Origin: Sphaerochaeta associata
GTDB taxonomy: Bacteria > Spirochaetota > Spirochaetia > Sphaerochaetales > Sphaerochaetaceae
Direction of reading: 5' to 3'
Assembly (NCBI RefSeq): GCF_022869165.1
Contig: NZ_CP094929.1
Location: forward strand, 1,922,001 to 1,986,000
DNA length: 64,000 nucleotides
The notes beneath the pieces were generated by a model that saw only the letters and a list, made by a program, of their open reading frames with translations, had not been told where the DNA came from and ran no database searches. Within the stretch, counting starts at the first letter, position 1; every line of letters begins with the position of its first letter. Shown in pieces: positions 259 to 30,458 of the stretch. The position numbers and the translations under genes were made by a program.

Positions 259-3200
259 TTAATTCTCCAGATCCAGACTCTTCAGATACCGTTGTACAAT
301 CCTATGGTTCTCGCTGTCGATATACAGATCCGGATGGTTGAGACAGAGCCTGCTCAAGACTTCTGCAACCGTGTAAGGCGCATCATCGGTGGCAAACCCC
401 TTCTCATAGAGGAATGAAGACAGGGCATCCCTGGCATTATCCCGAAAACCTTTCAGAACTTTTGCCTCAATGGCTTGAAGTACATCGTTGCCTGTCCTAC
501 GCTCCTCCTGCAGAAAGATCTGCAGGGCCTCGTAGTAGGCGGCGCTTCGGTTCAGCTTCAAATCATCGTCGGACAAATCATGGATAGTGAACACCTTCGG
601 CCTTCCGGTTTGAGCCAGCTGCTGGGCTTGTGCAACCAGGGCCAGGCGCTGCCGGTACTGTTCTCCTGCCCTTGCCACCTGCCCAGCATTGACAAACCCC
701 CGCTTCATATGGGCATACAGCTCTTCGCTTTCAGTGCACAGATACCAGCTGTGCAAACTCCCTATCGGCTCGTACAGAAGCGGTGACGGAATATTCAGTG
801 CCTTTGCATACGCATCATAGTCTTGCACAGGATCGATTACGGACAACGTATCCACCTTCACCGCAGAGTAAGGACTCTCTTGGATACGATAGCTTCGTTT
901 TACATCCTCCAACCTGATCACCTGCAACGCCCCCTTTGCCACATCCTGAAGCTTGGTCACCTCATCAAGTTGTGCAGTGCAATAGAAAACCTGCCGGTCC
1001 TTGGAAATCTCAACAATGGCCTCTGCAATCGCCAACGATCGCTGGTCGTCGCTGTTGGCCATCAATTCGTCAAAGAAGACGGGAAAGTGATACTCACCCC
1101 CGCTTTCCAGCATCTCCAGAAAAGCCATTCTCACTGCAAACAGCAGCTGCACCCTCGTACCACTGGAGAGCTCGGCAAGGGAGAAGCTTCGTCCCAGGGT
1201 GGTATCCACAGCATTGAAGGTGCCGTTGCCCATACCAAGGGAAAAGCGGTTTGCCGTAATACGCAGCAACCAATTACTCGCATGGCGGACCACCTGCGGT
1301 ACATGAATCGATTCCGACTCTTGCTTCACCTCCTCAAAGAGGGTGTACACCATGCGCTCGTGCACTTCCTCTCTTCGTTGGGCCTCCAAAGCCTCCTTGG
1401 CCGCCTCGTAGCTGAACAGGGCTTCCTCCAACTTGGTATCCGAGCACAACGAATCATACCGCTCCCGCTTTCTCCCGTACTCTTCACGCAGCTCCTCCAG
1501 CTGCCCGAGTTCGGCCTCTGCATCGGAGACCATATCCATGACTTCGTCCAGCGAGGTGCTTGCAGCAAACTCAATGATCTCCGGCGGATAGGTATTGAGT
1601 GATTGCTCATACCCACGCTTTTGATCTTCAAGCCCACGATACTGTTCATACTGACTCTGCAGGTTTTCCAGAGTCTGCAGGTCGCCTGAGGCAAGCTTAA
1701 GCCGTTCGAAGAGCTTTTGCAAATCCGATGCAACGGTACCCTGCCTCTGTTCTTCCTGTACAAGCAGCTCCTTTTGGCTTTGCAAGCGGTCTTGAAGCTT
1801 GGATGCATTTTGGATGGTGTGTATCAGATTCTGCGAGCCGGCTGTGATATCGACAACCTCGGTCTCCTGCAACCTGCACAGCCGTGCCAGATCAAGTGCC
1901 GCTGCTTGGAGCTGCTTTCGTGCATGCTGCACCTGTGCAGCACTCTGATCGTGGGCACTGACTGCGTGCACCCAATCCTTGAGGAGAGGAGACAGATGGA
2001 AGAATTGCGAGCCTTGCAGATCCGGCTCCTTGGTCAGGTTGAGAGCCCTGCTCGCTTGTTCCCATTCATCAAGCCAGGCATCATAAGCATCTTTTGCCTG
2101 CTCCAGGGTTTGTACGGCGTTTCTTCGCCTCACATTCTCCCCTTCCATGCGCTCCAGATCGGCCATCCTGGCGAGGACTTTCCTAAGCAGGTTCGAAACG
2201 CCTGCAACATCAAAAGATTCGAGGGCGAAGTGACCCAGCTGATTTTCCAGCCTGGCCTGATAGGAAGCCAGCAAAGTTTGAAGCGACTGGTACTTTTCAT
2301 TGGGTATGTTCCTGGAAAAAACCAGTCCGAAAATGGCGACTGCCAAGGTTCCGAGCAAACCGAGCATCGGGGAGAAGGTAATGGATAGCAGCGAGCCGAA
2401 CAAGGAGAGGGCGACTGTGCCAAGAAGCAGTACTTTACGGGAGTGACGCTTGGTTTTCGGCATGGAGTTCACACTGCCGAGGGTCTCGATGCAAAGAAGC
2501 AGTGTTGTCTTCAAAGATTCCAGTCTCTCTTTTTCCTGCAAATCGACCTCGACCAGCTCCCCCAGTTGCCGCAGGTGGGCTTGCGAGGCAGCGAGATTGC
2601 AACGAAGCGGTTCGCAACTAAGAGCAAGCTTGGCAAGCTTTTCCACCATGCTTACCAACTTTCCTTGGTCCGGTGCCTGGCTCACCAGCCAGGAAAGTTG
2701 TTCTTCACACACCTTCAAGGCACTCTTGGTACTCTGCAGTTCCTTTTCAGTCGAGCGTACCTGGTTTTCAAGCTCCTTGATTGCATCGATCCGAGCGGTA
2801 ATGACCTGGATAAAATTGGGGTCGGCGAGGAATTCAGGGTCGACTATAAGGTTGTCCAAAACCGCTTGGTCGACCTTGATGGAGGCCTGCCGCTCCCTTA
2901 CCGCTTCATCGGCTTGCTCCAAGGCTGCTTGCAATGCTCGGGCATCCTTGAACGTGTGCTCATTCAGCAGGGCAAGAGTACTGTCATACCCCTGCAGGTC
3001 GGCCAGCAGAGCCCGTCTTTTCTCAAGCGTCTGGAGATACGCTTGCACCGATTTCAACCGTTCAGAGGTTTGCTGCAAGTAAGCCTGACGAGACAACTCA
3101 CGTTCAAGTCGGGCTATTTCGGTCTTCAGAGAAACATTTGCTTGCAACTCGGTTCGGATCGCATCATAAGCCTTATAAGCTTCCGTAACGCTGCTTGCAA

Positions 3201-3681
3201 GCTTAATTCTCCCATTGGAGAACGCTGCAATACCTTTGGCTTGCCGAAGCGCGAGCTGAAGGTCGATCCCGCCCTGCATCTCTTTCTGGATGGCTTGGAG
3301 AAATACACCCTGAGAACCCACAGATTCCAAAAGCTCGTGCAACGGGAACCAGTAGGCATCCGCATACTCATCATTACGTCCGGGCAGGCGAATCTCTTCT
3401 CCTGTATCGAGACGCTTCTGTACGAGCCTGCCCTGTGAAAGGCTCAGATGCCACGTCTGCCCTCCCGACATCACAAGGGCCTCAGCTTCCAGGTTTTTCG
3501 GACAATCCGATGCGAACAACAGGCCGCGCATGGTCGAAACCATCGTGGTCTTGCCTACGCCGTTTGGTCCATGAACGACATTCAGACCACCGTGGAGAGA
3601 GCGTAAATCCGGAAAAGTATGGCTGGGAAAGCCTGGAGCGCGAAAGAGGGAGAACGAAGTGAATTGATGCTGTTTTGCCAT
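259..3681 (-). CDS. YhaN/SbcC-like ATPase with membrane hairpin and C-terminal extension
   Basis: This is a 1140-residue SMC/Rad50-like ATPase, the partner of the nuclease encoded just upstream. Walker A is GPNGVGKTT at about residues 38-46. Long coiled coils follow, and the signature LSSGTR and the Walker B FPVFFDE lie near residues 835-870. A pair of hydrophobic helices at about residues 418-460 sits in the middle of the coiled coil, where SbcC carries its zinc hook. That is the layout of Bacillus YhaN, so membrane attachment is likely. After the ATPase head about 215 further residues (roughly 925-1140) show no motif I know. The ATG overlaps the stop of the preceding gene (TAATG), which indicates translational coupling. 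In SbcCD-type pairs the ATPase controls access of DNA ends to the nuclease; that role is inferred here. Confidence 0.82.
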   Translation of the reverse strand: MAKQHQFTSFSLFRAPGFPSHTFPDLRSLHGGLNVVHGPNGVGKTTMVSTMRGLLFASDCPKNLEAEALVMSGGQTWHLSLSQGRLVQKRLDTGEEIRLPGRNDEYADAYWFPLHELLESVGSQGVFLQAIQKEMQGGIDLQLALRQAKGIAAFSNGRIKLASSVTEAYKAYDAIRTELQANVSLKTEIARLERELSRQAYLQQTSERLKSVQAYLQTLEKRRALLADLQGYDSTLALLNEHTFKDARALQAALEQADEAVRERQASIKVDQAVLDNLIVDPEFLADPNFIQVITARIDAIKELENQVRSTEKELQSTKSALKVCEEQLSWLVSQAPDQGKLVSMVEKLAKLALSCEPLRCNLAASQAHLRQLGELVEVDLQEKERLESLKTTLLLCIETLGSVNSMPKTKRHSRKVLLLGTVALSLFGSLLSITFSPMLGLLGTLAVAIFGLVFSRNIPNEKYQSLQTLLASYQARLENQLGHFALESFDVAGVSNLLRKVLARMADLERMEGENVRRRNAVQTLEQAKDAYDAWLDEWEQASRALNLTKEPDLQGSQFFHLSPLLKDWVHAVSAHDQSAAQVQHARKQLQAAALDLARLCRLQETEVVDITAGSQNLIHTIQNASKLQDRLQSQKELLVQEEQRQGTVASDLQKLFERLKLASGDLQTLENLQSQYEQYRGLEDQKRGYEQSLNTYPPEIIEFAASTSLDEVMDMVSDAEAELGQLEELREEYGRKRERYDSLCSDTKLEEALFSYEAAKEALEAQRREEVHERMVYTLFEEVKQESESIHVPQVVRHASNWLLRITANRFSLGMGNGTFNAVDTTLGRSFSLAELSSGTRVQLLFAVRMAFLEMLESGGEYHFPVFFDELMANSDDQRSLAIAEAIVEISKDRQVFYCTAQLDEVTKLQDVAKGALQVIRLEDVKRSYRIQESPYSAVKVDTLSVIDPVQDYDAYAKALNIPSPLLYEPIGSLHSWYLCTESEELYAHMKRGFVNAGQVARAGEQYRQRLALVAQAQQLAQTGRPKVFTIHDLSDDDLKLNRSAAYYEALQIFLQEERRTGNDVLQAIEAKVLKGFRDNARDALSSFLYEKGFATDDAPYTVAEVLSRLCLNHPDLYIDSENHRIVQRYLKSLDLEN

Positions 3682-4895
3682 TATCGTTCTCCTTGCTTTT
3701 GCACTATCATCGCTTGGAGCAGCCGCATGCCGGCTTGCCTGGCTAGATTAGCAGCTTCTTCCAAACTCAGGCTTGAACTGTCCAGCCTGCTGTACGCCGA
3801 GCTGTTGCAGCTCTCTTCGTTGAGGCTTTGATACTGCCTCGCCAATCGGTCCAACTGCACTGGATCGAGCAGTTTTTTGGCAAGCATGGCATCGGGCCCG
3901 CTTCCCTTCGACAGTTGATGCAAGTCGATTGCAAGCTCGGTTTGGTCCTCGTAGCGATCGAGCAAGTAGGCGACAACACCTTGTTCCTCTATGAAGAAGG
4001 CATCGTCGTCCCCGATCTTTTGCATGACCTGCCCAAGGTTGAGAGAAGGATTGAGCGTGCCGGTGAAGACAGCCTTCACATACAGCGTCCCTTCATACTT
4101 GAGTTCGTGTATACAATTGCGGATGCTCTTGGTAAGGTGTTTCTGTATCCCATCGGCATCCTCGATGCCGCTTACATCAACGATGAAGGTCTCATAGCGA
4201 TAGGGACAAAGGGGAATGAAGAGCGGCGGCTTGAAGTGCAGGTCCCCTTCCGTTTCCAAAAGATAGACGCCGTGCTCGCCCATCTCATTCACATCGAGTG
4301 CATAGGGAGAACCACAGTAATACGCTTGTGCTTGTCCGACTTTTCCCCTCTTGTGAATGTGGCCGAGCATCCACAGTTCCACCTTGCTTCGGATAAGATC
4401 CTGCTCTTGGACCGGTGCATAGGCAGAGAGCGCAGTGCCGTAGTCGGCATGCAGCAATCCCAGATGTATGAGAGAGGGATTGAGCAAATCGCTGGGAAAC
4501 TTTTTCAGAGGATTCTCTTTTTCATGGCTTGAGGGAAATGACCAGCCGAGAAATCGGACACACCCGATGTCCAGACTCTCCCATTTCCCGCCAAGGCCGA
4601 GGATCGTGATGGCATCGCTGTCCTGCACCAGGCTGGGAAAGATGTTCCAGTCATGATTGCCCCCCACCCCGACGACCCTGATGCCTGCTTCCTTGAGCGT
4701 CTGCAATCCTTTGAGCAAGGGGCCGTATACCGAAAGCCAGGCTTTTTCCTGCTCAACCACATCGCCTGCCAACACAACAACGTCGACAGCGAGGCTGAGG
4801 GCTTTCTCCACAATGGCATCCCAACTACTGTGCCCGGATTGAGCGAATTCAGGCTTTCTGCCCATATGGATATCTGCGCATGCCAGGATTTTCAT
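3681..4895 (-). CDS. YhaO/SbcD-like metallophosphoesterase (DNA exonuclease)
   Basis: A 404-residue calcineurin-like phosphoesterase with the usual metal motifs in order: DIHMGRKPEF near the N-terminus, GDVVEQ, GGNHDW, HADYG and GHIHKRG. It is the nuclease partner of the following ATPase, as in SbcCD, Mre11-Rad50 and Bacillus YhaO-YhaN. I start it at MKILACADIH (4895), because GGAGG lies at the right distance and the metal motif begins at once. An in-frame start at 4979 would add 28 residues unlike the family and would overlap the neighbouring reductase gene. About 200 residues follow the catalytic core, probably the capping and ATPase-contact region. The stop codon overlaps the next start by one base. 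Confidence 0.87.
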   Translation of the reverse strand: MKILACADIHMGRKPEFAQSGHSSWDAIVEKALSLAVDVVVLAGDVVEQEKAWLSVYGPLLKGLQTLKEAGIRVVGVGGNHDWNIFPSLVQDSDAITILGLGGKWESLDIGCVRFLGWSFPSSHEKENPLKKFPSDLLNPSLIHLGLLHADYGTALSAYAPVQEQDLIRSKVELWMLGHIHKRGKVGQAQAYYCGSPYALDVNEMGEHGVYLLETEGDLHFKPPLFIPLCPYRYETFIVDVSGIEDADGIQKHLTKSIRNCIHELKYEGTLYVKAVFTGTLNPSLNLGQVMQKIGDDDAFFIEEQGVVAYLLDRYEDQTELAIDLHQLSKGSGPDAMLAKKLLDPVQLDRLARQYQSLNEESCNSSAYSRLDSSSLSLEEAANLARQAGMRLLQAMIVQKQGER

Positions 4896-4965
4896 ACTGC
4901 CTCCAGTGCATCGAGTATACCACATTGACAGACGGGAGAACCATCGAATACCGACTATTGTGCGA

Positions 4966-5889
4966 TCATGAACGATCATCCATCAGCACTACGACGCTAC
5001 CCACCTTATGTTTGGTATCGACTCGTGCGTGAGCTGCTGTTATGTCCTGCAACCGATATGTGCTGTCAATAATCGGTTTCAACGTTCCCTCCTCGAACCA
5101 TTGGCGCAGTTGCTCCAATTGATCCCTGGTCTCCTTGGCAACGCTGCTGCCTCCTACCGTTAGGAAGATACCTTTGTCGGATAGAAGTCGTCTCCTCTCG
5201 GCTGCCGGCATTTTTCCAACAGCATCAAACACAACATCGAAGCGAGTGGAACAATCAGCGAGCTCTTTATTGGTGTAGGATAAAAATGCATCCGGCCCCA
5301 AGGAAAGCACGGCCTCGCGGTGCATATCGCTCGCACAAGCCGTCACACGAAAACCCATACGTTTGGCAATTTGTACTGCCATGCAGCCCACCGCCCCCGA
5401 GGCTCCATACACCAGTAATGTAGACCCAATCTTGGATGAGGCTTTGTTCAAAAAAAAGAGCGCTGTCGTTCCACCGAAGACCAATGACACCGACTCTGCA
5501 TCAGAAGCTTTGACGGGGCACTTGGCCATTGCCGCTTTGATGGGGACGGCGACATACTCGGCATGACAACCGAAGCCAAGACCCGGGGTGCAACCAAAGA
5601 GCCGGTCGCCTACCTGGAAATCTGTTGCCAACGATCCAACCGCTATCACTTTACCAGAGAAAACAGTACCCAGAATCGGCTGTTTGGGTCTTTTCCAACC
5701 CATGACCAGTCGCAGGATAACTTTCAAAGGACCTGCAACGTCCAATGCCCTCGTCCGCACATCGGCAGAGTTCACTGACGATGCCCCGATTTGCACCAAT
5801 ACGTGGTCATCCTTACAAACTGGGATTGGAACTTCACAGAGGTGTACCACTTCAGGAGGACCGTACGATTCATACACTGCTGCTTGCAT
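4966..5889 (-). CDS. NAD(P)H-dependent MDR-family oxidoreductase (quinone reductase/zinc-free alcohol dehydrogenase type)
   Basis: A 307-residue medium-chain dehydrogenase/reductase. The N-terminus MQAAVYESYGPPEVVHL is typical of the zinc-free quinone reductase branch. The nucleotide-binding turn is YGASGAVGCMAVQIAK at about residues 143-158. I do not see the Cys/His set of a catalytic zinc, so an NAD(P)H-dependent reduction of a quinone, enone or aldehyde is more likely than classical alcohol oxidation. The start at 5889 is preceded by AAGAAGG at about 10 bases; a longer reading frame to 5958 lacks such a site. It lies 70 bases upstream of yhaO on the same strand and may be co-transcribed, although no functional link is apparent. 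The substrate is unknown. Confidence 0.78.
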   Translation of the reverse strand: MQAAVYESYGPPEVVHLCEVPIPVCKDDHVLVQIGASSVNSADVRTRALDVAGPLKVILRLVMGWKRPKQPILGTVFSGKVIAVGSLATDFQVGDRLFGCTPGLGFGCHAEYVAVPIKAAMAKCPVKASDAESVSLVFGGTTALFFLNKASSKIGSTLLVYGASGAVGCMAVQIAKRMGFRVTACASDMHREAVLSLGPDAFLSYTNKELADCSTRFDVVFDAVGKMPAAERRRLLSDKGIFLTVGGSSVAKETRDQLEQLRQWFEEGTLKPIIDSTYRLQDITAAHARVDTKHKVGSVVVLMDDRS

Positions 5890-6261
5890 CTGTTTAAAAC
5901 CTTCTTTTATAGTCTGTTGGTTGGTGGTTGGCATACGTCCGCAATAGGTGAACGACAAGATGTCAATGAGTAATCGAAGGCACGAAAGGTTTACTTATTG
6001 TTCGGACAACCACAACGCCCGGTCGCATACCAGAACATAGTTACAGTGTACAAGTCCAACCATCGGAGTTCAAGTTCAGGGCGACAAGCCCAGGATTCCG
6101 AACTGGCCCGAAGATGAATCATCCCAATCATTCCTCAATAGTCACGCTTTTACTTGTTTGGAAATGAAAACTCTGGACATGGAAGGCTGTCTCCATCGAT
6201 CAACATGCAAATGGGAGGCTTTCGCCCCCCATATCATGTAACTATTCTCGTACCTATGGAC
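5890..6261. other. Intergenic stretch without a recognisable gene
   Basis: These 372 bases separate the reductase gene from the 3' end of the sugar-uptake operon. No frame carries a convincing product. Apart from the hairpin at 6211-6232 I see only a short GGGC-N5-GCCC stem near 6080. No good promoter for the reductase is visible; TTGACA occurs on the minus strand but has no matching -10 at normal spacing. Confidence 0.5.
6211..6232 (-). terminator. Putative terminator of the six-gene sugar operon
   Basis: ATGGGAGGC and GCCCCCCAT pair around a TTTC loop with a single A-C mismatch. It lies about 30 bases past the stop of the binding-protein gene, the last gene of the operon. The minus-strand bases that follow are only moderately T-rich, so termination strength is uncertain. 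Confidence 0.45.
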
Positions 6262-7518
6262 TTACTTGTCCAAAATCGCCTGCATCTGGCTGTGAATGGC
6301 GGCAGTCCCTTCGGCTGCGGAGACCTTGCCGCCGAAAATCTGGGCGACATGGTCGTTTACGATTCCAAACCATAGGCTGAAATCAGGGCCGGCCGGGAAC
6401 GGGACAGCATGTTCGGCAGCCTTGAAGAAGGTGTCCACATTGATGTTCTTGAAGTTTTCCAGGTACTTGGGCTGAGCCGCCTTGTAGGCGGGAATGTCAA
6501 TGCCTTCCTCGGCCTGGATGGTGTTGCCTACTTCACCGGTGATGAACTTCACGAAATCCCATGCAGCATTCTTGTCCTTGGTGAATGCGGAGATGACATA
6601 GCCCAATCCGCCAAGCACGGAGGTGTTTCCAGCCTCCTGGTTGGGCATGGTGATCAAACGGACTTTGCCGTTCTTTCCAAGGGTGGATTCTTCAAGAACT
6701 ACACTCTTCCACGAACCCACATAGAGGATGGCACCCTTTCCCGAGAGGAAAAGATCGGTACCGTTGGTATCGGAGAGCACTACGTAGGGAGCCAGGAGGC
6801 CGCCGTCCATCAAGTCGACCACACGCTGGTATGCCAAGGTTGTTTCCTTGAGATTGTACCCGGACTTTGAGAAGTCTTCACTGATCACATACCCGCCGCT
6901 CTGGTGGGCGAAGTTGAAGTGTGAGGGCTGGGCGTCGAGTTCCATAAGAATGGGATACTCATCACCGCCGCTTTTCTTGATCGCATCGCGAAGCTTGGTT
7001 GCAATGGAAACCATATCGGCCCAACTCCACCCTTCGGAGGGAAGAGCGACACCGTACTTCTCAAACAGCTCGACGTTCAAGGCGACTGCAACGGAGTCGA
7101 GACCCTTGGGCATGCCCCAGGTCTTGCCTTCGTATTGGTTCATCTTCACCATGGCCTCTACATAGTTGTTCATATCGACCTTATCGCGTGCGATGAACTC
7201 ATCAAGGGGCTGGAGAATCCCACCTGCGACATACTTGGGAAGGTAGGTGTTCATCCAGAACACATCCGGTGCACTCTTACTGCCCGCCGCTGCATCAAGT
7301 TTTGTCCAATAGCTGCCCCATGGGGTGAGCTCGATGGTAACGGCGACCTTGTCCTGTGATGCATTGTACTGATCGACGATCTTCTGGATCGCCGGTTTCT
7401 GGTACTCATCCCAGAGTGCAAGTGTCAACTGCGTTTTTGCCGGTTCTTTTGCACCAGCGGCAAAAACAAACGAGGCACCGATAAGAAGCACAAGCGCCAA
7501 TACGAAACCCTTTTTCAT
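6262..7518 (-). CDS. Sugar ABC transporter substrate-binding protein (family 1)
   Basis: A 418-residue secreted binding protein for a carbohydrate importer, working with the two permeases upstream in the same operon. A signal peptide of about 20 residues (MKKGFVLALVLLIGASFVFA) is followed by AGAKEPAK, a motif shared by other binding proteins in this window. The mature part reads like MalE/UgpB-type proteins, with LALWDEYQKPAIQKIVDQYN near the start and APDVFWMNTY in the first lobe. The start at 7518 has AGGAGG at ideal spacing. No ATPase gene is present in the operon, so the importer must borrow an MsmK/UgpC-like ATPase from elsewhere. The sugar is not determined by sequence; the neighbouring deacetylase and GH4 enzyme favour an N-acetylated or beta-linked disaccharide. 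Confidence 0.88.
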   Translation of the reverse strand: MKKGFVLALVLLIGASFVFAAGAKEPAKTQLTLALWDEYQKPAIQKIVDQYNASQDKVAVTIELTPWGSYWTKLDAAAGSKSAPDVFWMNTYLPKYVAGGILQPLDEFIARDKVDMNNYVEAMVKMNQYEGKTWGMPKGLDSVAVALNVELFEKYGVALPSEGWSWADMVSIATKLRDAIKKSGGDEYPILMELDAQPSHFNFAHQSGGYVISEDFSKSGYNLKETTLAYQRVVDLMDGGLLAPYVVLSDTNGTDLFLSGKGAILYVGSWKSVVLEESTLGKNGKVRLITMPNQEAGNTSVLGGLGYVISAFTKDKNAAWDFVKFITGEVGNTIQAEEGIDIPAYKAAQPKYLENFKNINVDTFFKAAEHAVPFPAGPDFSLWFGIVNDHVAQIFGGKVSAAEGTAAIHSQMQAILDK

Positions 7519-7565
7519 TTGAAATCCTCCTATTTGTCTGTGTTCCCACTGAAGGGGACACCGAT

Positions 7566-8243
7566 TCACCGTCCACTCTTGCTCGAATTGAGCAAGCTTC
7601 CTGCATCCTCCAACCTGAGGGGCTGCTGATGGTACAATCCCTCGGCGAGGGCAAAGCCACCCAACATTCCGTGGTACCTGGCCCAAGTTTCCAACATTGG
7701 CTCGATCGCTTGTGACGGATAGGAAGCGATAACCTGCCTCCATTGCTTCTCAACGTCACTGATATCCAGGACAATATCGGGTCTCTTTGCATTGCGTTTT
7801 GGATCGAGGGAGAAAAAGAGTACCTGGGAGGGATGCCATGTCCTGCCGTCAGTACTGTATTTTTTCAACCCCGATACAAAAACAGCGCGGTCGACCAGAG
7901 CTGAAACTGCGCGATGGTCCGGATGATAGTCATCCGGATGGATGGTAAGAATGGTTCTCGCCTCGCACTCTCGAAGAATCGGGATGAGGCTTTGTACACC
8001 CTCCTCCGTCACTTCGATTCCGGCATCAGGAAAGTCGAGGATACGCATGAAGTCCAGGCCAAGAGCCTTGCCTGCATCATTGAACTCCTTGACACGTTCC
8101 TCTTTGGTGGCGAAACCACCGCTCTCGCCCTTCGTCAAACAGACCAAGCCGGTTGTGTATCCCTCGTTCTTAGCCTTGAGCAGAAGACCTGCAACCGCCG
8201 TTTCATCATCGGGATGTGCCGTAATTACTAAAAAATCCACCAT
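7566..8243 (-). CDS. PIG-L family N-deacetylase
   Basis: A 225-residue LmbE/PIG-L domain protein. The zinc-binding motif AHPDDE occurs at residues 9-14, and the second motif HPDDYHPDHR near residue 109 supplies further metal and catalytic residues. Family members remove N-acetyl groups from sugars such as GlcNAc-inositol, GlcNAc-PI, bacillithiol precursors and diacetylchitobiose. It has no signal peptide, so it acts in the cytoplasm. It lies between the permease and binding-protein genes of one operon with a GH4 glycosidase and a PfkB kinase. That placement suggests it deacetylates the imported sugar or a breakdown product. AGGAGG precedes the ATG. Confidence 0.85.
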   Translation of the reverse strand: MVDFLVITAHPDDETAVAGLLLKAKNEGYTTGLVCLTKGESGGFATKEERVKEFNDAGKALGLDFMRILDFPDAGIEVTEEGVQSLIPILRECEARTILTIHPDDYHPDHRAVSALVDRAVFVSGLKKYSTDGRTWHPSQVLFFSLDPKRNAKRPDIVLDISDVEKQWRQVIASYPSQAIEPMLETWARYHGMLGGFALAEGLYHQQPLRLEDAGSLLNSSKSGR

Positions 8244-8251
8244 ATGTCCTC

Positions 8252-9079
8252 CTACCCTTTCACGCCGGTCGAGGCGATTCCTTCAATGATGTATCGTTGG
8301 AAGAAAATGAATATCACAATGATGGGCAACGAAGAGATCACTCCCCCGGCCATCACCTGTTCGTAATAAGTGGTGTGCTCCCCGATGAGGAAGGCAAGAC
8401 CTGCAGAGAGCGTCAACTTGTCCAAGGATCGATTGATGATCAGAGGCCACATCAGGTCGGTCCAGGTCCACAGTGCTATGAGAATTCCCAGACTCACCAT
8501 GGCCGAACGTACAAGCGGTACCAAAATCCTGGCAAAGATGATCTGGTACGAACACCCGTCCACCAGAGCCGCCTCATCCATCTCCTTGGGAATGGTGAGA
8601 AAGGCCTGTCTGAGGAAGAACACACCGAAGACGCGGAATATCCCGGGCAAGGCGAGAGCGAACAAGGTATTGGAAAGCCTCCAGGAAGTGATGATCTGAT
8701 AGTGGGGAACCAGGAAGATCTGTCCGGGAATCATCAACAGGCCGAGTACCAGCATAAACAGGACATCCCTGCCTGCAAAATGAAGCCTTGCAAACGCATA
8801 TGCAGCCATTGCACAGACTGCCAGATTTCCCCCAACCACCAGCGCCACCACAATGAACGTGTTGAGATACAATCGAGCAAAGGGAAACTTGGCGGCGATG
8901 ATTTGGTAATTCTTCCATTGCCAGACTTCAGGAACCAGCTGAGGAGGAATCCTGATTGCTTCCTCGTAGGTCTTCAAAGAAGTGAGCAGCATCCAGATGA
9001 AGGGGAAAACTGTCAGCAGGGCAGCGAAACTGAGTAGGAGAAGTACGGGTATATAGAAGGATTTTTGTTGTTTCATCAT
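8252..9079 (-). CDS. Sugar ABC transporter permease, MalG type
   Basis: A 275-residue inner-membrane protein with six predicted helices. The EAA loop (EMDEAALVDGCSYQIIFARI), which docks to the ATPase, lies near residue 165. It pairs with the permease encoded immediately upstream. I place the start at the ATG at 9079, which overlaps the upstream stop as ATGA. A GTG at 9094 would add five residues, and GGTGGG lies in front of both options. The sequence fits the carbohydrate uptake-1 (CUT1) family. Confidence 0.88.
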   Translation of the reverse strand: MMKQQKSFYIPVLLLLSFAALLTVFPFIWMLLTSLKTYEEAIRIPPQLVPEVWQWKNYQIIAAKFPFARLYLNTFIVVALVVGGNLAVCAMAAYAFARLHFAGRDVLFMLVLGLLMIPGQIFLVPHYQIITSWRLSNTLFALALPGIFRVFGVFFLRQAFLTIPKEMDEAALVDGCSYQIIFARILVPLVRSAMVSLGILIALWTWTDLMWPLIINRSLDKLTLSAGLAFLIGEHTTYYEQVMAGGVISSLPIIVIFIFFQRYIIEGIASTGVKG

Positions 9080-9972
9080 GAGTAGTGCACCCACCTTTTT
9101 TGCATGACAAACTGGAAAATCGTCACAATCAGGATGATTACAAAAAGCACCAAGCTCACAGCCACCCCATACCCTTTCTCAAAGGCTACGAAGCTGCGGT
9201 CGTAGAAGTAGTAGACCAAGGATGAGGAGTACTGGATCGCCAAGGAGGTCGAGCGGATCATTAAAAAGATGAAGTCAAAGATTTGAAAGACATTGATGAT
9301 GCTGATGGTGATGACAAAAAATAGTGTCGGGGAGAGCAAAGGCAAGGTGATGCGGAAAAAAGACTGCATCGTGCCTGCTCCATCGATGAGAGCAGCCTCA
9401 TAGTACATGGTCGGTATATTCTGCATCCCGGCAAGCAGAATGACCATCTGCGTTGCCAGCATGGACCAGATGAGAACGATGCTGACAGAATATAAGACGA
9501 CATCAGGTTCACTAAGCCATGCCACACTCTCAAGCTTGAGTGCATTAAGCAGGACGTTGATCAAGCCGAATTTATAGTTGAACAACCAACGCCACAAAAT
9601 GCCGATCGCCGCCGGCATGGTGATGGCGGGAAGGAAGAGCAAGGTCCTGAACATGGTGCTCATGCGTTGCAGCTTGGAGAGAAGAAATGCATTGAGGGTA
9701 GAGAGTATTACAATGGCAGGAACGCACAACACTACATACATCAAGGTGTTGGAGAGCGAGCGATGGAACTTGGGATCTGCGAACAGACGCCGGTAGTTCT
9801 CCAGACCTATGAACCGGGGCTTTCCGAAAGAACCGAGGTCGGTGAAGCTGAAATAGACATTTTGAAAGAATGCAAAAAAGTAGAAGACACCCAACCCCAC
9901 CAGCAGCGGCAGGAGGAAGAACAGGGCGGCCTTTCGTTCCTGTTTATACAGGTAATGAGGTGTTCTACTCAC
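9076..9972 (-). CDS. Sugar ABC transporter permease, MalF type
   Basis: A 298-residue membrane protein with a cytoplasmic N-terminus (SRTPHYLYKQERKAALFF), six helices, and an EAA loop around MYYEAALIDGAGTMQSFFRI. It forms the heterodimeric channel with the next gene product. The start is most likely the GTG at 9972, because TGGAGG sits six bases upstream; it overlaps the end of the PfkB gene by eight bases. A second GTG at 9993 is less well placed. Both overlaps indicate one tightly coupled operon. Confidence 0.85.
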   Translation of the reverse strand: MSRTPHYLYKQERKAALFFLLPLLVGLGVFYFFAFFQNVYFSFTDLGSFGKPRFIGLENYRRLFADPKFHRSLSNTLMYVVLCVPAIVILSTLNAFLLSKLQRMSTMFRTLLFLPAITMPAAIGILWRWLFNYKFGLINVLLNALKLESVAWLSEPDVVLYSVSIVLIWSMLATQMVILLAGMQNIPTMYYEAALIDGAGTMQSFFRITLPLLSPTLFFVITISIINVFQIFDFIFLMIRSTSLAIQYSSSLVYYFYDRSFVAFEKGYGVAVSLVLFVIILIVTIFQFVMQKRWVHYS

Positions 9973-10885
9973 AGAAAGCCTCCATACAATCACCCGTTAT
10001 CAAAGGGGACACAGACTCCTTTGCTGAAGCGGTAAGAGATCCAAGATAGGAGCCGTACTGCATACAACGCTGTAAACTTGCATTGTGCACCAAGGCATAT
10101 ATGAAGCCCGCAGCGAAGGAATCTCCGCTGCCTGTGGTGTTCACCACCGTCACCTCAAATGCCGGACTATGCAGCAAATCACCCTCTTTGGTAAGCGCAC
10201 AACAGCCATCAGCGCCAAGAGTGATGACTGGAATGGGTACAAAAGCCTGCAATGCCTGCATGATTGGGTACAAGTCCTTTTCGCCGGTAATGCTCTTGGC
10301 CTCGCCAAGGTTCATAAACACCCAATCGACAAGCCGGGCCTGGTGCTTGCTCTCTTCACTCCACTGTAGACTATCCTGATACCCCAGACCAGTGGAAAAG
10401 GAGGCACCCTTCCCTCTTTGAACGGCAATAAATCGTTGCACACAAGCAAGGCCAAGATACTCGAAGCAGATATGCACATGCCTGAACGACTGCTCGGTCA
10501 TCGCTTGGAGCTGACTAGCAAGTGATTTCTCAAGTAAACAACGGCTTTGCACCCAGGTAAGGAACGAGCGGTCGGTCTTTCCATGCATGATCAGGCTGAG
10601 ATTGGTCTTCTCCCCCTCCATGGTGACCACACTTGCTGTGTCTACATGCTCCATCCTGAGAAGTTGCACCAGCTGGCTTCCCAAGGCATCGTCACCCACA
10701 GAGGCTGCCAATGCACTGTTCAGGCCGAGTTTGGCAAGGGCGATTGCCACAATGGCATTCCCTCCCGCCGACAGCGTGTAGGAGTCAAGAAACATCTCCT
10801 CTCCCGGCTGGGGCAAGCCGGTAAACCCTTCGAGCAGGAGATCGCAGTAGATGGGTCCGACGGTGAGGACGGTTTGGTCTTTCAT
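9965..10885 (-). CDS. PfkB-family carbohydrate kinase
   Basis: A 306-residue sugar kinase of the ribokinase/PfkB fold. The N-terminal half has the GG-type substrate loop (SAGGNAIVAIALAKLG). The C-terminal signature NTTGSGDSFAAGF carries the catalytic Asp and anion hole, with N in place of the usual first D. It probably phosphorylates the imported sugar or the monosaccharide released by the GH4 enzyme; the position phosphorylated cannot be told. The ATG at 10885 overlaps the stop of the GH4 gene as ATGA and is preceded by AGGACAGGA. It is the second gene of the operon. Confidence 0.85.
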   Translation of the reverse strand: MKDQTVLTVGPIYCDLLLEGFTGLPQPGEEMFLDSYTLSAGGNAIVAIALAKLGLNSALAASVGDDALGSQLVQLLRMEHVDTASVVTMEGEKTNLSLIMHGKTDRSFLTWVQSRCLLEKSLASQLQAMTEQSFRHVHICFEYLGLACVQRFIAVQRGKGASFSTGLGYQDSLQWSEESKHQARLVDWVFMNLGEAKSITGEKDLYPIMQALQAFVPIPVITLGADGCCALTKEGDLLHSPAFEVTVVNTTGSGDSFAAGFIYALVHNASLQRCMQYGSYLGSLTASAKESVSPLITGDCMEAFCE

Positions 10886-12210
10886 CGTCCTGTCCTCATA
10901 CAATCGTAGAGAGAGGCTGCATCGGCGCCGACAAAGGGGTGCATTCCCAGTGCCTCGATGGCATTCCTCTCTGATTGCGAAGCGACGGCCTCGATGACCT
11001 TGCGCTCATAGCTCTTCATCTGCATCAGCAGTGCCCGAGAGGACGGATGCAAAGCTGAAGCGGTTCCGATGGGAGCAAACCATCCGTCCCGGGGAAGTGT
11101 TGAGACTTCAATGACATCGTCATCGGCCAAAGCCGGATCAAAGCCGTTGTTCGGTATATTGAGGATCAATGGCTTCTTGCTGATGCCCATGACCGAAGAG
11201 AGTACATCCAATGCAATAGCATCATAGCCGTTGGCATTGTGTTGTTCCAATAGCGAAAAGACAGGAAGGGAGCGGTCTCGACCCGACTCCAAAGCCATAT
11301 AGGACCCGTTTCTTGCATCCATATAGTGATTGAAAGCATCAAGTGCATCCACTGTTCCTGCACCGAGAGCCTTATACAGCTCCTCATCCAGAATCTTGAT
11401 GGTCTGGGCACGGCTCAGCGGAGACTTTTTCTGGTTTTCCACGATCGTTTTCGTGTGCTCATAGTAGTACAGGTATTCATTGGGAATCGTTCGTGTTTTT
11501 CTGATATGAGATTCCAAATCTTGATAGAAGGGCTCCTTCTCGAAGAATAGTGGCAACTTGGTATCGATCAGGTCTCCAAGCATCTCCTTACCTTTGAGCT
11601 GCATCCCGTACACCCAGCCAAGGTGGTTGATTCCGTAATAGTGAAGCAATACATCCTCTGCATCACAGCCGTAGATCTCTGAAGCATAAGTTGCAACCAT
11701 TTGGGGCGCATCGCAAATGCCGATGATCTTCCGGAACCCTGTAAGCGAGTGAACCGCCTGGGTTACCAGGCCCGAAGGGTTGGTGAAATTGATCAATGTT
11801 GCCTTGGGTGCAACCTTCTCGAGCAGACGTACCTGCTGCAGCACCACCGGAATGGTTCGCAATGCAAGAAAGAATCCACCGACTCCGACCGTCTCCTGCC
11901 CTATCTGCGAACACCTCATTGCGGTCAGCTCATCAGCGATTCTCTGTTCCTGCCCTCCCACCCTGATGGACGAGAACACATAATCGGCTCCTTCCAACGC
12001 TTCCTCAAGCGTTTTGCACAGCACGATGCGGATGGTATTCCGGTGAGATGCGAGTATGCGGGTTAAAAGCGTGCGGTCAAGCAAAGCAAGCTTTTGTGTG
12101 TCGATATCGTACAAGTGGATTGTATCAAACACAAGTTCCGTTCGGTTCAGCAAGGAGTGCAACAGTAAGGGAAATCGAGGACTTGCAGCTCCCAGAATGG
12201 TCAGTTTCAT
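10882..12210 (-). CDS. Glycoside hydrolase family 4 (6-phospho-beta-glucosidase-like)
   Basis: A 442-residue GH4 enzyme, a family that cleaves glycosides by an NAD+- and Mn2+-dependent oxidation/elimination route. The family-wide landmarks are present: an N-terminal dinucleotide fold (MKLTILGAASPR), RVGGQEQRIADE, QIGQETVGVGGFF, NFTNPSGLVTQA, GICDAP with the metal-ligand Cys, and YGINHLGW with the metal-ligand His. The spacing and IGQET...GG resemble LicH/CelF-type 6-phospho-beta-glucosidases more than alpha-galactosidases. As first gene of the operon it is read from the promoter at 12239-12267. The start at 12210 follows AAGGAA; an upstream ATG at 12228 is less likely. No PTS gene is seen, so the kinase next door may supply the phosphate. 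Confidence 0.85.
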   Translation of the reverse strand: MKLTILGAASPRFPLLLHSLLNRTELVFDTIHLYDIDTQKLALLDRTLLTRILASHRNTIRIVLCKTLEEALEGADYVFSSIRVGGQEQRIADELTAMRCSQIGQETVGVGGFFLALRTIPVVLQQVRLLEKVAPKATLINFTNPSGLVTQAVHSLTGFRKIIGICDAPQMVATYASEIYGCDAEDVLLHYYGINHLGWVYGMQLKGKEMLGDLIDTKLPLFFEKEPFYQDLESHIRKTRTIPNEYLYYYEHTKTIVENQKKSPLSRAQTIKILDEELYKALGAGTVDALDAFNHYMDARNGSYMALESGRDRSLPVFSLLEQHNANGYDAIALDVLSSVMGISKKPLILNIPNNGFDPALADDDVIEVSTLPRDGWFAPIGTASALHPSSRALLMQMKSYERKVIEAVASQSERNAIEALGMHPFVGADAASLYDCMRTGR

Positions 12211-12238
12211 AGTTCTTTCCTTCGACATGCGTACTCAT

Positions 12239-12267
12239 ATTGTATGAGGTAAACGTTTTCCCGTCAA
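12239..12267 (-). promoter_or_regulatory. Promoter of the GH4 sugar operon with LacI-type operator in the spacer
   Basis: On the minus strand TTGACG and TACAAT are separated by exactly 17 bases. The spacer contains GGAAAACGTTTACC (12248-12261), a near-perfect palindrome centred on AAACGTTT, the hallmark of LacI/GalR-family operators. A repressor bound there would block RNA polymerase directly. The lacI gene at 12349-13332 is the obvious candidate. Confidence 0.75.
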
Positions 12268-12348: not shown

Positions 12349-13332
12349 CTACCCGACGCTGTCTCCTGTCTGGATTCTATGGGCAAGCAAGGTAACCGGC
12401 GCAACCTTCTCTCCCTGTAAGAGCGTAAGCAGATGAGTGGCCGATTGCACCCCTATCTGTATAATAGGCTGGCTGACTGTAGCAAGTGTTGGATTGAGAA
12501 ACCTTGATAAGGCAATACCGTCAAAGCCCAAGACGGACAAGTCTTGTGGTATACGAAGACCGGCATCCAATGCAGTTCTCATTACACCGATGGCCATCTC
12601 ATCGCTGAGGACGAACACCGAGTCAAACGTTTTTTTGCTTGCCAACAGCCGCTCCATGGCCTCACTACCAGACTCGACGGTGTAATTGCCGGGTACCACC
12701 AATGCTGGATCGAAAGACAGTCCCGCTTCCTCCAAGGCGGTCTTGTAGCCTTGCAGGCGCTTGTCACCAACCGAGTAACCCCAGCCGCCGATCAAGGCGA
12801 TGTGCTTTTTGCCAAGGGAGAGCAAATAGTTCGTTCCATCATAGGATGCTTGGAAGTCATCAATCCGAACCTGGGGAAACGGGAGGTCGGGGATGTCGAT
12901 GCCGGCAAGAACAATCGGAATCTGACTTTTTTTCAGTTGGTCGTACACCTTGGGGTTGCTTGTCTCATGCATCAACAGCATGCCGTCCACCCGGTTCTCA
13001 AGCAGGAGGTCCAAATAAACGCGGACGCTGGATACCGTGTCCTTGACCCGGCAAACCAATACCTTGTAGCCCGCCTCTTCCAGCACGTGTTCAGCTTGTG
13101 AGAAGACCATCTGATGATAGAGCTCCGAGACTTCAGGAATGATAAGGCCGATGGTGAAGGTTTTCTTGAGCACCATGCTTCTGGCAACATGGTTCGCTAC
13201 GTACCCTTCTTTTTCTATGCAAGCCAGTACCTGCTGCTTCAGATCCTCACTTACAAACTTTGTCCCATTCAACACACGAGACACCGTTGCAACTGAAACA
13301 CCGGCTTCCTTGGCTATCTCCTTGATTCCCAT
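12349..13332 (-). CDS. LacI-family transcriptional repressor
   Basis: A 327-residue regulator. The N-terminal helix-turn-helix is MGIKEIAKEAGVSVATVSRV, followed by the hinge-type segment LNGTKFVSEDLKQQV and a periplasmic-binding-like sugar domain (TFTIGLIIPEVSELYHQMV onward). The start at 13332 has AAAGGAAG upstream; a longer frame to 13383 adds residues foreign to the family. It lies upstream of the GH4 operon on the same strand, with its own promoter. The palindrome at 12248-12261 fits this protein class, so it is the likely local repressor, induced by the imported sugar or its phosphate. Confidence 0.9.
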   Translation of the reverse strand: MGIKEIAKEAGVSVATVSRVLNGTKFVSEDLKQQVLACIEKEGYVANHVARSMVLKKTFTIGLIIPEVSELYHQMVFSQAEHVLEEAGYKVLVCRVKDTVSSVRVYLDLLLENRVDGMLLMHETSNPKVYDQLKKSQIPIVLAGIDIPDLPFPQVRIDDFQASYDGTNYLLSLGKKHIALIGGWGYSVGDKRLQGYKTALEEAGLSFDPALVVPGNYTVESGSEAMERLLASKKTFDSVFVLSDEMAIGVMRTALDAGLRIPQDLSVLGFDGIALSRFLNPTLATVSQPIIQIGVQSATHLLTLLQGEKVAPVTLLAHRIQTGDSVG

Positions 13333-14233: not shown

Positions 14234-16018
14234 TCAGTCAAACGGATATTCCAAGCGCTTGGTATACGTTGTATGCAGCAGGTGGTGACTCATCTGCGAC
14301 AACGGCTGGTCCAAGAACCGTGCGTACAGGTCCTTGATCGCAGGGTTCTCGTGGGACTTCCGTATTGGTTTGCTTCTATCCTCCTCGTAGATCGACTGAG
14401 CACGCTTTGCCCGGATGTCGTCATTTGTTGGAATGGGTTGTCCTCCACCCCCAAGGCAGCCGTCGGGACAGGTCATCACTTCGATGAAGGTATAGGGGCT
14501 TGTCCCTGCCTTGATCTGATCAAGCAGGACCCGGGCGTTGGCCAAGGTATTGGCTACCGCCACCTTGACCGTACTTTCGCCGATCTGCAGGGCGGCCTCT
14601 CGAATTCCCTTTCGCTCGCGAAGTGAGGCGAACTCAACCTCTTGCAGGACACTTCCGGTCAGCTTCTCAACTGCGGTTCTCAGCGCAGCTTCCATCACCC
14701 CGCCTGATGATGCAAAAATTACGGCGCCTCCGGTGGAGGCCCCCAAGGGATCGTCAAACTCCCCTTCTCCAAGCGAGGCGAAATCGATGCCCACCATCTT
14801 GAGCATTTTGGCAAGCTCACGGGTGGTGAGAGCCCAATCGACATCACAGAAGCGGTCCTCCTCTGAAAGATTCATTCGCTCCTTCCAATACGAGAACGAG
14901 CTGTCCATTTCGCTGCGACCAGCCTCGAACTTTTTTGCCGTACAGGGCATGATTGAAACAACCCGGATAGAACGGGGATCAAGTTGCGCCTGCTCGGCAT
15001 AGAATGTCTTGGCGATGGCGCCGAACATCTGCTGGGGTGATTTACAGGAGGAGAGATGCCCGACCTGCTCGGGATAGAAGGTCTCGATGAACTTGATCCA
15101 CCCCGGCGAACAACTGGTAATCATGGGAAGCTGTCCCTGATGGGTGAGTCGATGGATCAACTCATACGCTTCCTCCATGATGGTAAGGTCGGCGGTGAAC
15201 TGCGTGTCGAACACTTTGTCGAAGCCCAGGGATCTGAGCGCACCAACCATTTTGCCGGTGACCAAGCTTCCCTCTCCGAGCCCCATTGCTTCACCCAACC
15301 CCACCCTGATGGCAGGAGCCGTTTGGACCAGTACGGTCAGCGATGGATCGTGAAGCGCATCAAAGACCTGCTGGACCTGGCTTTTCTCGGTAATGGCCGC
15401 AGTCGGGCATACAAGTGAACACTGCCCGCAGTTGGTGCATACCGAGTTTCCCAATCCTTGGTCGTAGAAGGTGGCTACCTTCGTCTTCAGTCCGCGTCCT
15501 GTCAGCTGAATCGCCGAGACCGACTGCATTGAGGCACACACCTCTACACAGCGATTGCAGAGTATGCAGGCATTCGGGTCGCGGATAAGTGATGCAGAGG
15601 TGGCATCAACTTCCTCGAATTTCTTTTTTGTCCTGGGAAACCTGCTTGTTCTTACACCAAGCTGCTGGCTGAGTGCCTGCAGTTCGCAGTTGAGATTGCG
15701 TTCACAGGTGGTGCAGAGAAGCGGATGGTTGGCCAATACCAATTCCAGATTGAGTTTCCTGGCATGGAGGACCCGCTCGGTTTGCGTCTTGATCACCATG
15801 CCCGGCATTACAGAGTGCATGCACGATCGCACCAAGCGCTTTGCTCCCTCAACCTCCACCACGCACACACCGCAGGAACCATGGGAACTTACATCCTTAA
15901 GGTAACAGAGCGTAGGAACCTTGATGCCGGCAGCCAGGCAGGCATCGAGAATACGGGTACCTCGTTCAACGGTGACGGGTTTTCCATCGATGGTACAGCT
16001 GATCATCTGCTCATCCAT
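14234..16018 (-). CDS. hydA: [FeFe] hydrogenase catalytic subunit (HydA/HndD)
   Basis: A 594-residue multi-cluster hydrogenase that makes or consumes H2. The N-terminal [2Fe-2S] domain (residues about 6-75) is followed by a His/Cys [4Fe-4S] motif (HPLLCTTCERNLNC), two ferredoxin-type clusters (CILCNRCVEVC, CTNCGQCSLVCP), and the H-cluster domain with its three signatures TSCSPGW, MPCTAKKFE and MTCPDGCLGGGGQ. A small-subunit-like tail follows. This is the layout of HndD and of the HydA subunits of trimeric bifurcating enzymes. AGGAGG precedes the ATG, which overlaps the end of the upstream subunit gene by eight bases. The maturases HydE, HydF and HydG are not in the window. Confidence 0.92.
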   Translation of the reverse strand: MDEQMISCTIDGKPVTVERGTRILDACLAAGIKVPTLCYLKDVSSHGSCGVCVVEVEGAKRLVRSCMHSVMPGMVIKTQTERVLHARKLNLELVLANHPLLCTTCERNLNCELQALSQQLGVRTSRFPRTKKKFEEVDATSASLIRDPNACILCNRCVEVCASMQSVSAIQLTGRGLKTKVATFYDQGLGNSVCTNCGQCSLVCPTAAITEKSQVQQVFDALHDPSLTVLVQTAPAIRVGLGEAMGLGEGSLVTGKMVGALRSLGFDKVFDTQFTADLTIMEEAYELIHRLTHQGQLPMITSCSPGWIKFIETFYPEQVGHLSSCKSPQQMFGAIAKTFYAEQAQLDPRSIRVVSIMPCTAKKFEAGRSEMDSSFSYWKERMNLSEEDRFCDVDWALTTRELAKMLKMVGIDFASLGEGEFDDPLGASTGGAVIFASSGGVMEAALRTAVEKLTGSVLQEVEFASLRERKGIREAALQIGESTVKVAVANTLANARVLLDQIKAGTSPYTFIEVMTCPDGCLGGGGQPIPTNDDIRAKRAQSIYEEDRSKPIRKSHENPAIKDLYARFLDQPLSQMSHHLLHTTYTKRLEYPFD

Positions 16019-26911: not shown

Positions 26912-27790
26912 CTAAAGATATGCTTCAATGCGCGCTAATGCTCCCTCTATTCTCAGTCTGGCTCCGTGGTCGAGTTCCTTGAACGGCTTTCTGCATGGTC
27001 CGGAGGGAATGCCCAGATAGGTCATGCAATACTTGACCGCAGGGAAAATTCCCTCTTTCACCACAGATTCAATGAAGTTGTTCAAGAGATGCTGTTTTTG
27101 CTGGGCACCGCTGATGTTGGAACCCAAAAAATCCTCTCGGATCGCACCAAAGAGCGATGGACACACATTTACCGTTGTTCCGATGGTACTCTGTGCTCCT
27201 GCAGCGAGGCTGTAGAGGAAAATCTCATCGAAGCCGTTGAAGAGGATTTTCTTGGGAAAAGCCTGTCCCAAACGCTCAAGGTCGTACAGATTCATCGAGG
27301 TGTGCTTTACGCCGATGATCTTCTCATGCTGCATGACCGCACTATCCTTGGAGAAGGAGATGCCGGTGAATTGGGGTATGTTGTACACGATCACCCCAAG
27401 GTCCACGGCATTCACGACATCAAGGTAGTAGTTCTCCACCTCTTGCTGCGAATAGTGGTAATAAATTGGAGGAATGAGGGAGACAGCCTTCGCCCCCGCT
27501 TCCTGAGCATGGATTGAGAGATCAATCGCCTCACGAGTCCCCAAGGAGCCGCTGTGTACATAAAAAGGCACCTTGTCCCTGCACACCTCGCTGACAAGCG
27601 TGGCAATCTGCTTTCGCTCTTCCACACTCAAAAGCAACCCCTCGCCGGATGACCCGCAGCAATAGAAGCCCTCACTGCCATGGTCCATTTCATACTGCAC
27701 GAGGTTCTGCAAAGCAACGGCATCGATGCTCCGATCCTCTCTCATCGGCGTGATGAGTGCCGAAACAACCGAGGGTGTCGAATCTACCAT
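26912..27790 (-). CDS. DHDPS/NanA-family lyase (sugar-acid aldolase candidate)
   Basis: A 292-residue class I aldolase of the dihydrodipicolinate synthase/N-acetylneuraminate lyase family. GSSGEG, which binds the keto-acid carboxylate, occurs near residue 45. The catalytic Tyr is in VIVYNIPQFTG, and the Schiff-base Lys is in GVKHTSMN. With SDR enzymes on both sides and a TRAP importer upstream, cleavage of a 2-keto-3-deoxy sugar acid, or a NanA-like reaction, is more likely than lysine synthesis. Two starts are possible: 27790, with GGGGGA eight bases upstream (chosen), and 27799. Both overlap the preceding SDR stop, so translation is coupled. Confidence 0.83.
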   Translation of the reverse strand: MVDSTPSVVSALITPMREDRSIDAVALQNLVQYEMDHGSEGFYCCGSSGEGLLLSVEERKQIATLVSEVCRDKVPFYVHSGSLGTREAIDLSIHAQEAGAKAVSLIPPIYYHYSQQEVENYYLDVVNAVDLGVIVYNIPQFTGISFSKDSAVMQHEKIIGVKHTSMNLYDLERLGQAFPKKILFNGFDEIFLYSLAAGAQSTIGTTVNVCPSLFGAIREDFLGSNISGAQQKQHLLNNFIESVVKEGIFPAVKYCMTYLGIPSGPCRKPFKELDHGARLRIEGALARIEAYL

Positions 27791-30445: not shown

Positions 30446-30458
30446 CAAAGAAATACCA

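Follow-up and report, generated by a model that had tools for sequence, protein, structure and literature searches.

We analysed a 64,000-nucleotide stretch of Sphaerochaeta associata DNA (contig NZ_CP094929.1, positions 1,922,001 to 1,986,000), hereafter called the window. Within it lies a set of six genes that, judging from the sequence, forms a genuine sugar-uptake operon linked to a lacI gene, with a regulatory site that is conserved. All six genes are on the minus strand and follow one another in the order: a glycoside hydrolase family 4 (GH4) NAD- and metal-dependent glycosidase (10882–12210), a PfkB-family sugar kinase (9965–10885; PF00294, 159.6 bits), two CUT1 ATP-binding cassette (ABC) permeases, A (9076–9972) and B (8252–9079), a PIG-L/LmbE-family de-N-acetylase with HPDDE and HPDH motifs (7566–8243; PF02585, 87.6 bits), and a CUT1 solute-binding protein with a signal-peptide-like start (6262–7518; PF01547, 108.1 bits). 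Both permeases match PF00528 and resemble, below cut-off, UgpA/GlcT (A) and UgpE/GlcU (B). A gene for a LacI-family regulator (12349–13332; PF00356 and PF13377) lies upstream on the same strand, ending 138 bp before the GH4 start, and has orthologues near GH4 in two close relatives (loci L040 and L041).

A preliminary description of this DNA had listed six genes with overlaps at most junctions. The gene set and order were confirmed, and three of the five junctions overlap: GH4 and PfkB by 4 bp, the two permease genes by 4 bp, and PfkB and permease A by 8 bp if GTG 9972, which follows GGAGG, is the start of the latter (GTG 9993 being the other likely start). The remaining two junctions are gaps of 8 and 47 bp. 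Downstream of the operon, a terminator-like site of six pairs (6034–6018) is weak, the total count of such sites being below that in shuffles, and no inverted repeats were detected at 5940–6300, downstream of the binding-protein gene, at the settings used. The order of GH4, PfkB, importer and PIG-L is the same in L041, which supports the earlier idea that these proteins work together.

The near-ideal promoter with a 17-base spacer noted earlier is indeed present (minus strand, 12239–12267), as a sigma-70-type site, TTGACG-17-TACAAT, with 10 of 12 matches. However, promoter-like sites are no more frequent than expected in the surrounding 10 kb (6 observed, 9.0 in shuffles), and the promoter alone is therefore not significant. 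Its spacer contains the palindrome that had been proposed as the LacI site, GGAAAACGTTTACC (12248–12261, minus strand). The octamer within it, AAACGTTT, is likewise at chance level: it occurs twice in the window against 0.78 expected, a count reached in 19 of 100 shuffles, and 47 times genome-wide, and we rejected it as a significant signal by itself. The longer site TTGANNGGAAANCGNTTWC is present once in the window, at the promoter of the operon (12267–12249), and twice on each of the L040 and L041 contigs (7.9 and 7.2 kb). All five copies, from three genomes, lie next to orthologous lacI genes, the orthologue being kept in both relatives (503 and 502 bits). It is thus position and conservation that take the operator site beyond chance. 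The 14-mer GGAAANCGNTTWCC was found exactly at two places in the genome, and the second was dropped as an operator because it falls inside a frame read by eye as rsmA.

The site nearest GH4 in L040 and L041 is weaker evidence than the other three, because it has no good -10 and can be read by eye as codons of a short frame. This frame (operator-like site at L041:2679–2697 and L040:2979–2997) reads LDGKTLT in both relatives and may be a leader peptide, a relic or chance. In L040, a further set of CUT1 genes (binding protein and permeases; 3034–6123), with its own operator copy, lies between lacI and GH4. A pattern for catabolite-type sites, run together with the operator-motif scan, returned nothing. 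A LacI helix-turn-helix protein is encoded nearby, and the operon promoter contains a conserved palindrome centred on CG; predicted control by a local LacI repressor covering that promoter is well supported, as had been suggested.

The GH4 protein (442 amino acids) scores 128.1 bits with PF02056 (cut-off 23.2) and 90.1 bits with PF11975 (cut-off 24.1), placing it in the family. Its likely start, ATG 12210, follows GAAGGAAAG, and relatives begin at the same MKLT. The enzyme carries an ICDAP motif, that is, a Cys-Asp pair, and an NH ligand; Cys166 and His196, which we take to be metal ligands, are present in 47 of 47 alignment rows. For its relatives we used the best 80 of at least 483 loci from one public-genome scan, chosen by two peptide patterns; the resulting counts are no census. 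These loci span at most 9 kb on each side of GH4, less in the many cases where contigs are short; genes in the high-GC loci were called mechanically, so that neighbours may have been missed, and each neighbour family takes its name from a single representative of its cluster. In addition, a search of 139 genomes of the order, including S. associata itself, found close GH4 proteins in G098 and G104 (60 and 59%), two copies at 30–31% in G079, and some GH4 match in 74 genomes.

Every one of the 80 loci has a Cys-Asp GH4, and one locus encodes an additional GH4 of the Cys-Asn type. A tree of 48 rows separated the sequences by motif, with one branch each setting off the Cys-Asp (support 77/61), the Cys-Asn (91/90) and the Cys-His type (100/100). 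A Novosphingobium row of 146 amino acids was excluded from the residue counts and from the approximately unbiased tests (p-AU). Besides ChbF of Escherichia coli, the Cys-Asn group contains two proteins annotated as 6-phospho-beta-glucosidases and the GH4 enzymes from Streptomyces clusters whose gene order resembles csn. The window enzyme and its two closest relatives, forced into one clade with the ChbF-holding group, were rejected (p-AU 0.0093); one clade with the annotated Enterobacter 6-phospho-alpha-glucosidase was borderline rejected (p-AU 0.0432), this being a single long-branch reference. With one joint clade rejected and the other borderline, the window GH4 seems, on the present tree, to lie in a separate Cys-Asp clade with neither reference set. 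The preliminary description had held that grouping with alpha-specific enzymes would speak against its proposal; the outcome lies in between, as the window enzyme shares Cys-Asp with the annotated GlvA-type alpha enzyme but is not joined to it. Presumably Cys-Asp marks alpha and Cys-Asn beta phospho-enzymes, a rule with which the labelled sequences in our analysis agree.

These results bear on the substrate first proposed, an N-acetylated disaccharide such as diacetylchitobiose. The operon would then act on a beta-linked sugar and be a counterpart of the E. coli chb operon with an ABC importer and a kinase. E. coli does pair a deacetylase with GH4, the top PDB matches of the window GH4 are 6-phospho-beta-glucosidases, and the fold of the PIG-L protein also matches diacetylchitobiose deacetylases (Z 24). 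Nevertheless, the rejected joint clade and the Cys-Asp pair in place of Cys-Asn argue against a ChbF-type 6-phospho-beta enzyme. The Streptomyces clusters taken for csn by gene order alone carry the Cys-Asn type, and the binding protein shows barely any similarity to a chitin-oligosaccharide binder (E 2e-4; its best match reached 3e-28). We therefore regard the diacetylchitobiose route as quite improbable. The N-acetylated nature of the substrate is still suggested by PIG-L, whereas diacetylchitobiose itself is weakened, and an alpha-linked substrate appears likelier.

Residues of the GH4 clade also argue for a phosphorylated substrate. Arg83 and Arg90 are present in all 41 Cys-Asp and Cys-Asn rows, whereas among the six Cys-His rows (the MelA group) Arg83 occurs in none and Arg90 in one. 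These arginines, which we assume bind the phosphate, are thus common to ChbF and the 6-phospho enzymes and make the window GH4 6-phospho-type by this measure. All but one of the 35 Cys-Asp rows have Arg12, which is absent from the 12 others.

A PfkB gene accompanies GH4 in 47 of the 80 loci. It was present in 29 of 29 Bacillota loci, always less than 400 bp from GH4, in 10 of 13 loci from other Actinomycetota, and in 8 of 38 Streptomyces loci (a group with one record titled [Kitasatospora]), two of them within 400 bp. Sinorhizobium and Phyllobacterium have the series GntR, GH4, carbohydrate kinase, binding protein, ATPase and two permeases; a carbohydrate kinase also lies beside GH4 in Novosphingobium and near it on one Streptomyces plasmid, with none shown on another. 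GH4 without a phosphotransferase system (PTS) had been called unusual at the outset, but the pair is common in Bacillota and present in Actinomycetota and rhizobia; for the same reason, we rejected the idea that the kinase–GH4 pair is peculiar to the window operon. The genome has four further GH4 genes, and a PfkB search of the 9–10 kb around each of them gave no match. The Sinorhizobium glucosamine-kinase gene SM_b21217 (PMC11378808, PMC4961836) was considered as the PfkB of the pSymB GH4 locus; since the 1021 record bears no gene annotation at that place, this identity is unproven, and it was not used.

In a PfkB tree of 55 rows, thinned from 64, GH4-adjacent kinases clustered but needed two changes and had weak joints; three of ten other PfkB places of the genome were not recovered in this sample. 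None of the 25 listed NCBIfam models reached its cut-off with the window PfkB.

In Klebsiella, a PTS takes the kinase's place. The GH4 relative pagL is nested in the window clade (100/100 with L042 and L008), and in both records examined a PTS IIBC gene of the glucose/alpha-glucoside type lies directly upstream, with no kinase annotated nearby; others in the clade have a kinase and an ABC importer where Klebsiella has the PTS permease. Among the sugar-specific models shown, the one for alpha-glucosides gave this IIBC its highest scores (348 and 358 bits, cut-off 607), which leans towards an alpha-linked sugar, although no model's cut-off was reached. One of the two records of this pair (L144:6428–9380, L151:4429–7380) annotates a maltose-6'-phosphate glucosidase; the pair groups with the PfkB-linked clade and may act on a different sugar. 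Given the phospho-type arginines, the PfkB–GH4 pairing and the Klebsiella PTS in the kinase's place, PfkB most likely supplies the 6-phosphate otherwise supplied by a PTS. Most simply, a PTS and PfkB would be alternative routes to the same 6-phosphoglycoside.

Alternatively, GH4 could cleave an unphosphorylated glycoside, with PfkB phosphorylating the released sugar. PfkB enzymes usually act on monosaccharides, and many of the 60 solved PfkB relatives shown are ribokinases, fructokinases and the like. Conversely, one solved relative (6wb7) is named, by its title at least, acarbose 7-phosphotransferase, so the PfkB fold can serve an oligosaccharide. Furthermore, GH4 has the phospho-type arginines without the Cys-His signature of the MelA group, and the PTS of Klebsiella, which stands where the kinase does elsewhere, also speaks against cleavage of a free glycoside. 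We consider this alternative rather unlikely. The earlier view that phosphorylation precedes cleavage thus gains support from the arginines and from Klebsiella, and we regard this phosphorylate-then-cleave core, taken alone, as somewhat probable.

The PIG-L protein is the less common element of the operon. His10, Asp12, Asp13, Glu14, His107, Asp109 and His110 were invariant in a twelve-sequence alignment. A structure model from these twelve sequences reached a predicted local distance difference test (pLDDT) value of 86, compared with 50 from two sequences, and its fold was closest to BshB-type proteins (Z 28–29), followed by GalB (26), diacetylchitobiose deacetylases (24) and MshB (19). Sequence similarity to diacetylchitobiose deacetylase (Dac) had an E value of 3e-10 at best. 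The best NCBIfam model was that of BshB1, at 142.9 bits with a cut-off of 182.5, and by this score the protein does not qualify as the bacillithiol deacetylase BshB1. PIG-L occupies the same operon place in L041, with 69% identity over 156 residues, compared with 59% for GH4 and 49% for PfkB; the L040 contig ends earlier. At 1e-20, matches were found in 12 of 392 genomes of the phylum, S. associata included, the others being 28–38% identical; G104, which carries a PIG-L gene, is not among the 12 and was presumably not drawn in the 392. Since PIG-L is kept in L041, and a search of the 80 distant loci gave no match at E 1e-6 (one 18-bit match, in L129, appeared at 1e-3), it looks like an addition within this genus. 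Its presence suggests an N-acetylated substrate.

It is also conceivable that the operon degrades an ordinary alpha-glucoside and that PIG-L has another role, for example in deacetylating a thiol precursor of the GlcNAc-malate type or in acting on a different acetyl group. This would fit BshB1 as the best model, the lack of PIG-L matches at 1e-6 in the distant loci, and the solved relatives of the binding protein, which include maltose and trehalose binders. However, the gene is embedded in the operon, flanked by the genes for permease B and the binding protein, and PIG-L is the best conserved of the three enzymes between the window and L041. We hold this explanation to be unlikely.

The importer is of CUT1 type, consisting of an SBP_bac_1 protein and two BPD permeases, and the best solved relative of the binding protein is Lmo0181 (102 bits). 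The operon has no ATPase gene; of five MalK-type places in the genome, four pass the cut-off and one falls short of it, so the missing ATPase can be supplied from elsewhere. Likewise, the genome encodes NagB (393 bits, cut-off 236.9) and NagA (366 bits, cut-off 225.65), so that glucosamine-6-phosphate would be usable as a product. Elsewhere in the S. associata genome (L184:560–4150), a phosphosugar mutase-like gene, a nagA over the cut-off and a divergent NagB-like gene under it form a second amino-sugar cluster.

Taken together, we tentatively propose, at somewhat less than even confidence, a LacI-repressed operon for an imported N-acetylated, probably alpha-linked glycoside, in which a kinase replaces the PTS and GH4 then cleaves. 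The CUT1 binding protein and permeases, energized by an ATPase from elsewhere in the genome, would import the intact glycoside, PIG-L would take off the N-acetyl group, and PfkB would phosphorylate O6 of the non-reducing sugar. GH4, with NAD+ and a metal, would cleave the 6-phosphoglycoside, and the released glucosamine-6-phosphate would pass to NagB. The gene order, protein families, phospho-type residues, conserved partnership and conserved predicted operator come from the DNA itself. The order of deacetylation and phosphorylation, the O6 site, the alpha linkage and the amino sugar are steps that we infer. We know of no member of the Cys-Asp/PfkB GH4 clade with a measured activity, which is why the substrate is unproven.

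Several other points weigh against this proposal. The nearest solved relatives of the window GH4 are 6-phospho-beta-glucosidases (155–159 bits), followed by a protein named cellulase IBT99 (127 bits), and they outscore the 6-phospho-alpha-glucosidases (86–97 bits). The alpha assignment leans on the Cys-Asp rule, which we presume rather than derive; the Cys-Asp side of the tree has just 77/61 support, and the sole annotated alpha enzyme, on its long branch, did not join the window trio. The clades tested were defined after the first tree had been seen, and the tree carries warnings of long branches. No PfkB match was found in 33 of the 80 loci, 30 of them from Streptomyces, although four of these 33 lie on contigs that stop immediately before GH4. 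Moreover, the GH4-adjacent PfkB proteins are not one clean clade, and PfkB could act on the released monosaccharide. Finally, as PIG-L was not found at 1e-6 in the distant loci, the amino-sugar part of the pathway may be limited to this genus.

The neighbourhoods of the distant relatives offer a further hint. Among the 80 loci, GH38 alpha-mannosidases were found in 21, GH125 in 10 and M17 peptidases in 14, and phosphatase- or phosphodiesterase-like genes recur. This context hints that the GH4 substrate is the inner part of a larger glycan, but it leaves the substrate of the window operon unfixed; a domain scan found no mannosidase in that operon. In L051–L069 and L074, mostly from Lachnospiraceae and Paenibacillaceae, GH4–PfkB occurs with GH38, GH125, M17 peptidase and phosphatase-like proteins in varying combinations, together with a 526-amino-acid protein with no family over the cut-off; these clusters look like an uptake locus for a mannose-bearing glycan. 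Two Streptomyces loci without a PfkB match carry a type I phosphodiesterase-family protein beside an ABC importer (L087:3670–4635, L121:3648–4655).

The mannosidase and phosphatase context led us to a more specific idea, a PTS-free 6-phospho-alpha-glucosaminidase pathway. The GH4 clade would degrade alpha-linked amino-sugar headgroups such as GlcN(Ac)-alpha-inositol, found in glycosylphosphatidylinositol (GPI)-type glycans and thiol precursors. GH38, GH125 and phosphatases or phosphodiesterases would strip the outer parts in the distant relatives, PIG-L would deacetylate the N-acetylglucosamine (GlcNAc) form in this genus, and PfkB and GH4 would phosphorylate and cleave the alpha-glucosaminyl bond. 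We consider this speculative and very unlikely as it stands. Another GH4 close to the 6-phospho-alpha-glucosidases is reported to have been inactive on the substrates its authors tried (PMC13096917).

Several known systems resemble the operon. The E. coli chb operon (ChbBCA PTS, ChbF GH4, ChbG deacetylase) also combines GH4 with a deacetylase for an N-acetylated disaccharide and has the 6-phospho-type arginines, but it uses PTS transport and a Cys-Asn GH4, where the window has a kinase, an ABC importer and a Cys-Asp GH4. Its deacetylase and regulator are of the YdjC and AraC types, in contrast to PIG-L and LacI. The window operon suggests, by analogy, a chb-like logic of deacetylation followed by GH4 built from other parts. 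In E. coli, the deacetylase is reported to act before GH4 (PMC12791066). The Streptomyces csnREFGHK cluster for chitosan oligosaccharides is described as having an ABC importer, GH4, a putative kinase, a ROK regulator and no PTS (PMC6097792). The window operon shares the importer, GH4 and a kinase without a PTS, but it has a LacI regulator in front instead of ROK and in this respect does not match the csn cluster. Three Streptomyces stretches were assigned to csn by gene order only (a binding-protein gene, then two permease genes and GH4); in these, neither the PfkB nor the PIG-L query gave a match at 1e-4. The GH4–PfkB loci with GH38 and GH125 (Lachnospiraceae, Paenibacillaceae) or GH38 (Streptomyces) share the Cys-Asp GH4, the PfkB neighbour and a CUT1-like importer. 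They differ in having mannosidases, M17 peptidase and phosphatase-like proteins and no PIG-L that we found, and their GH4 is 33–38% identical to that of the window.

Two other loci in the window were noted. At 26912–31601, a gene of the dihydrodipicolinate synthase (DHDPS) lyase family adjoins genes for a tripartite ATP-independent periplasmic (TRAP) transporter (DctM, DctP), possibly an acid-sugar uptake locus. At 14234–16018, a 594-amino-acid protein with iron-sulfur motifs resembles the [FeFe]-hydrogenase type, as judged by eye from its translation.

The usual account of GH4 enzymes is in terms of PTS sugars. A search of literature titles and abstract beginnings found no description of the combination in the window or of the Cys-Asp/PfkB GH4 clade, and none of such a pathway in connection with Sphaerochaeta and chitobiose, or with GPI-type glycans. 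What is already known is the ABC importer with GH4 and a putative kinase in csn (PMC6097792) and GH4 with a deacetylase in chb (PMC12791066). The kinase–GH4 pair is widespread; what is unusual here is the deacetylase that joins it. If the proposal is true, a large GH4 clade acting on a PfkB-made phosphoglycoside would carry out the same chemistry without a PTS, and the "6-phospho-beta-glucosidase" annotations on GH4 proteins of this clade would need correction. The version with PIG-L would then be an independently assembled counterpart of the deacetylase-plus-GH4 logic of E. coli.

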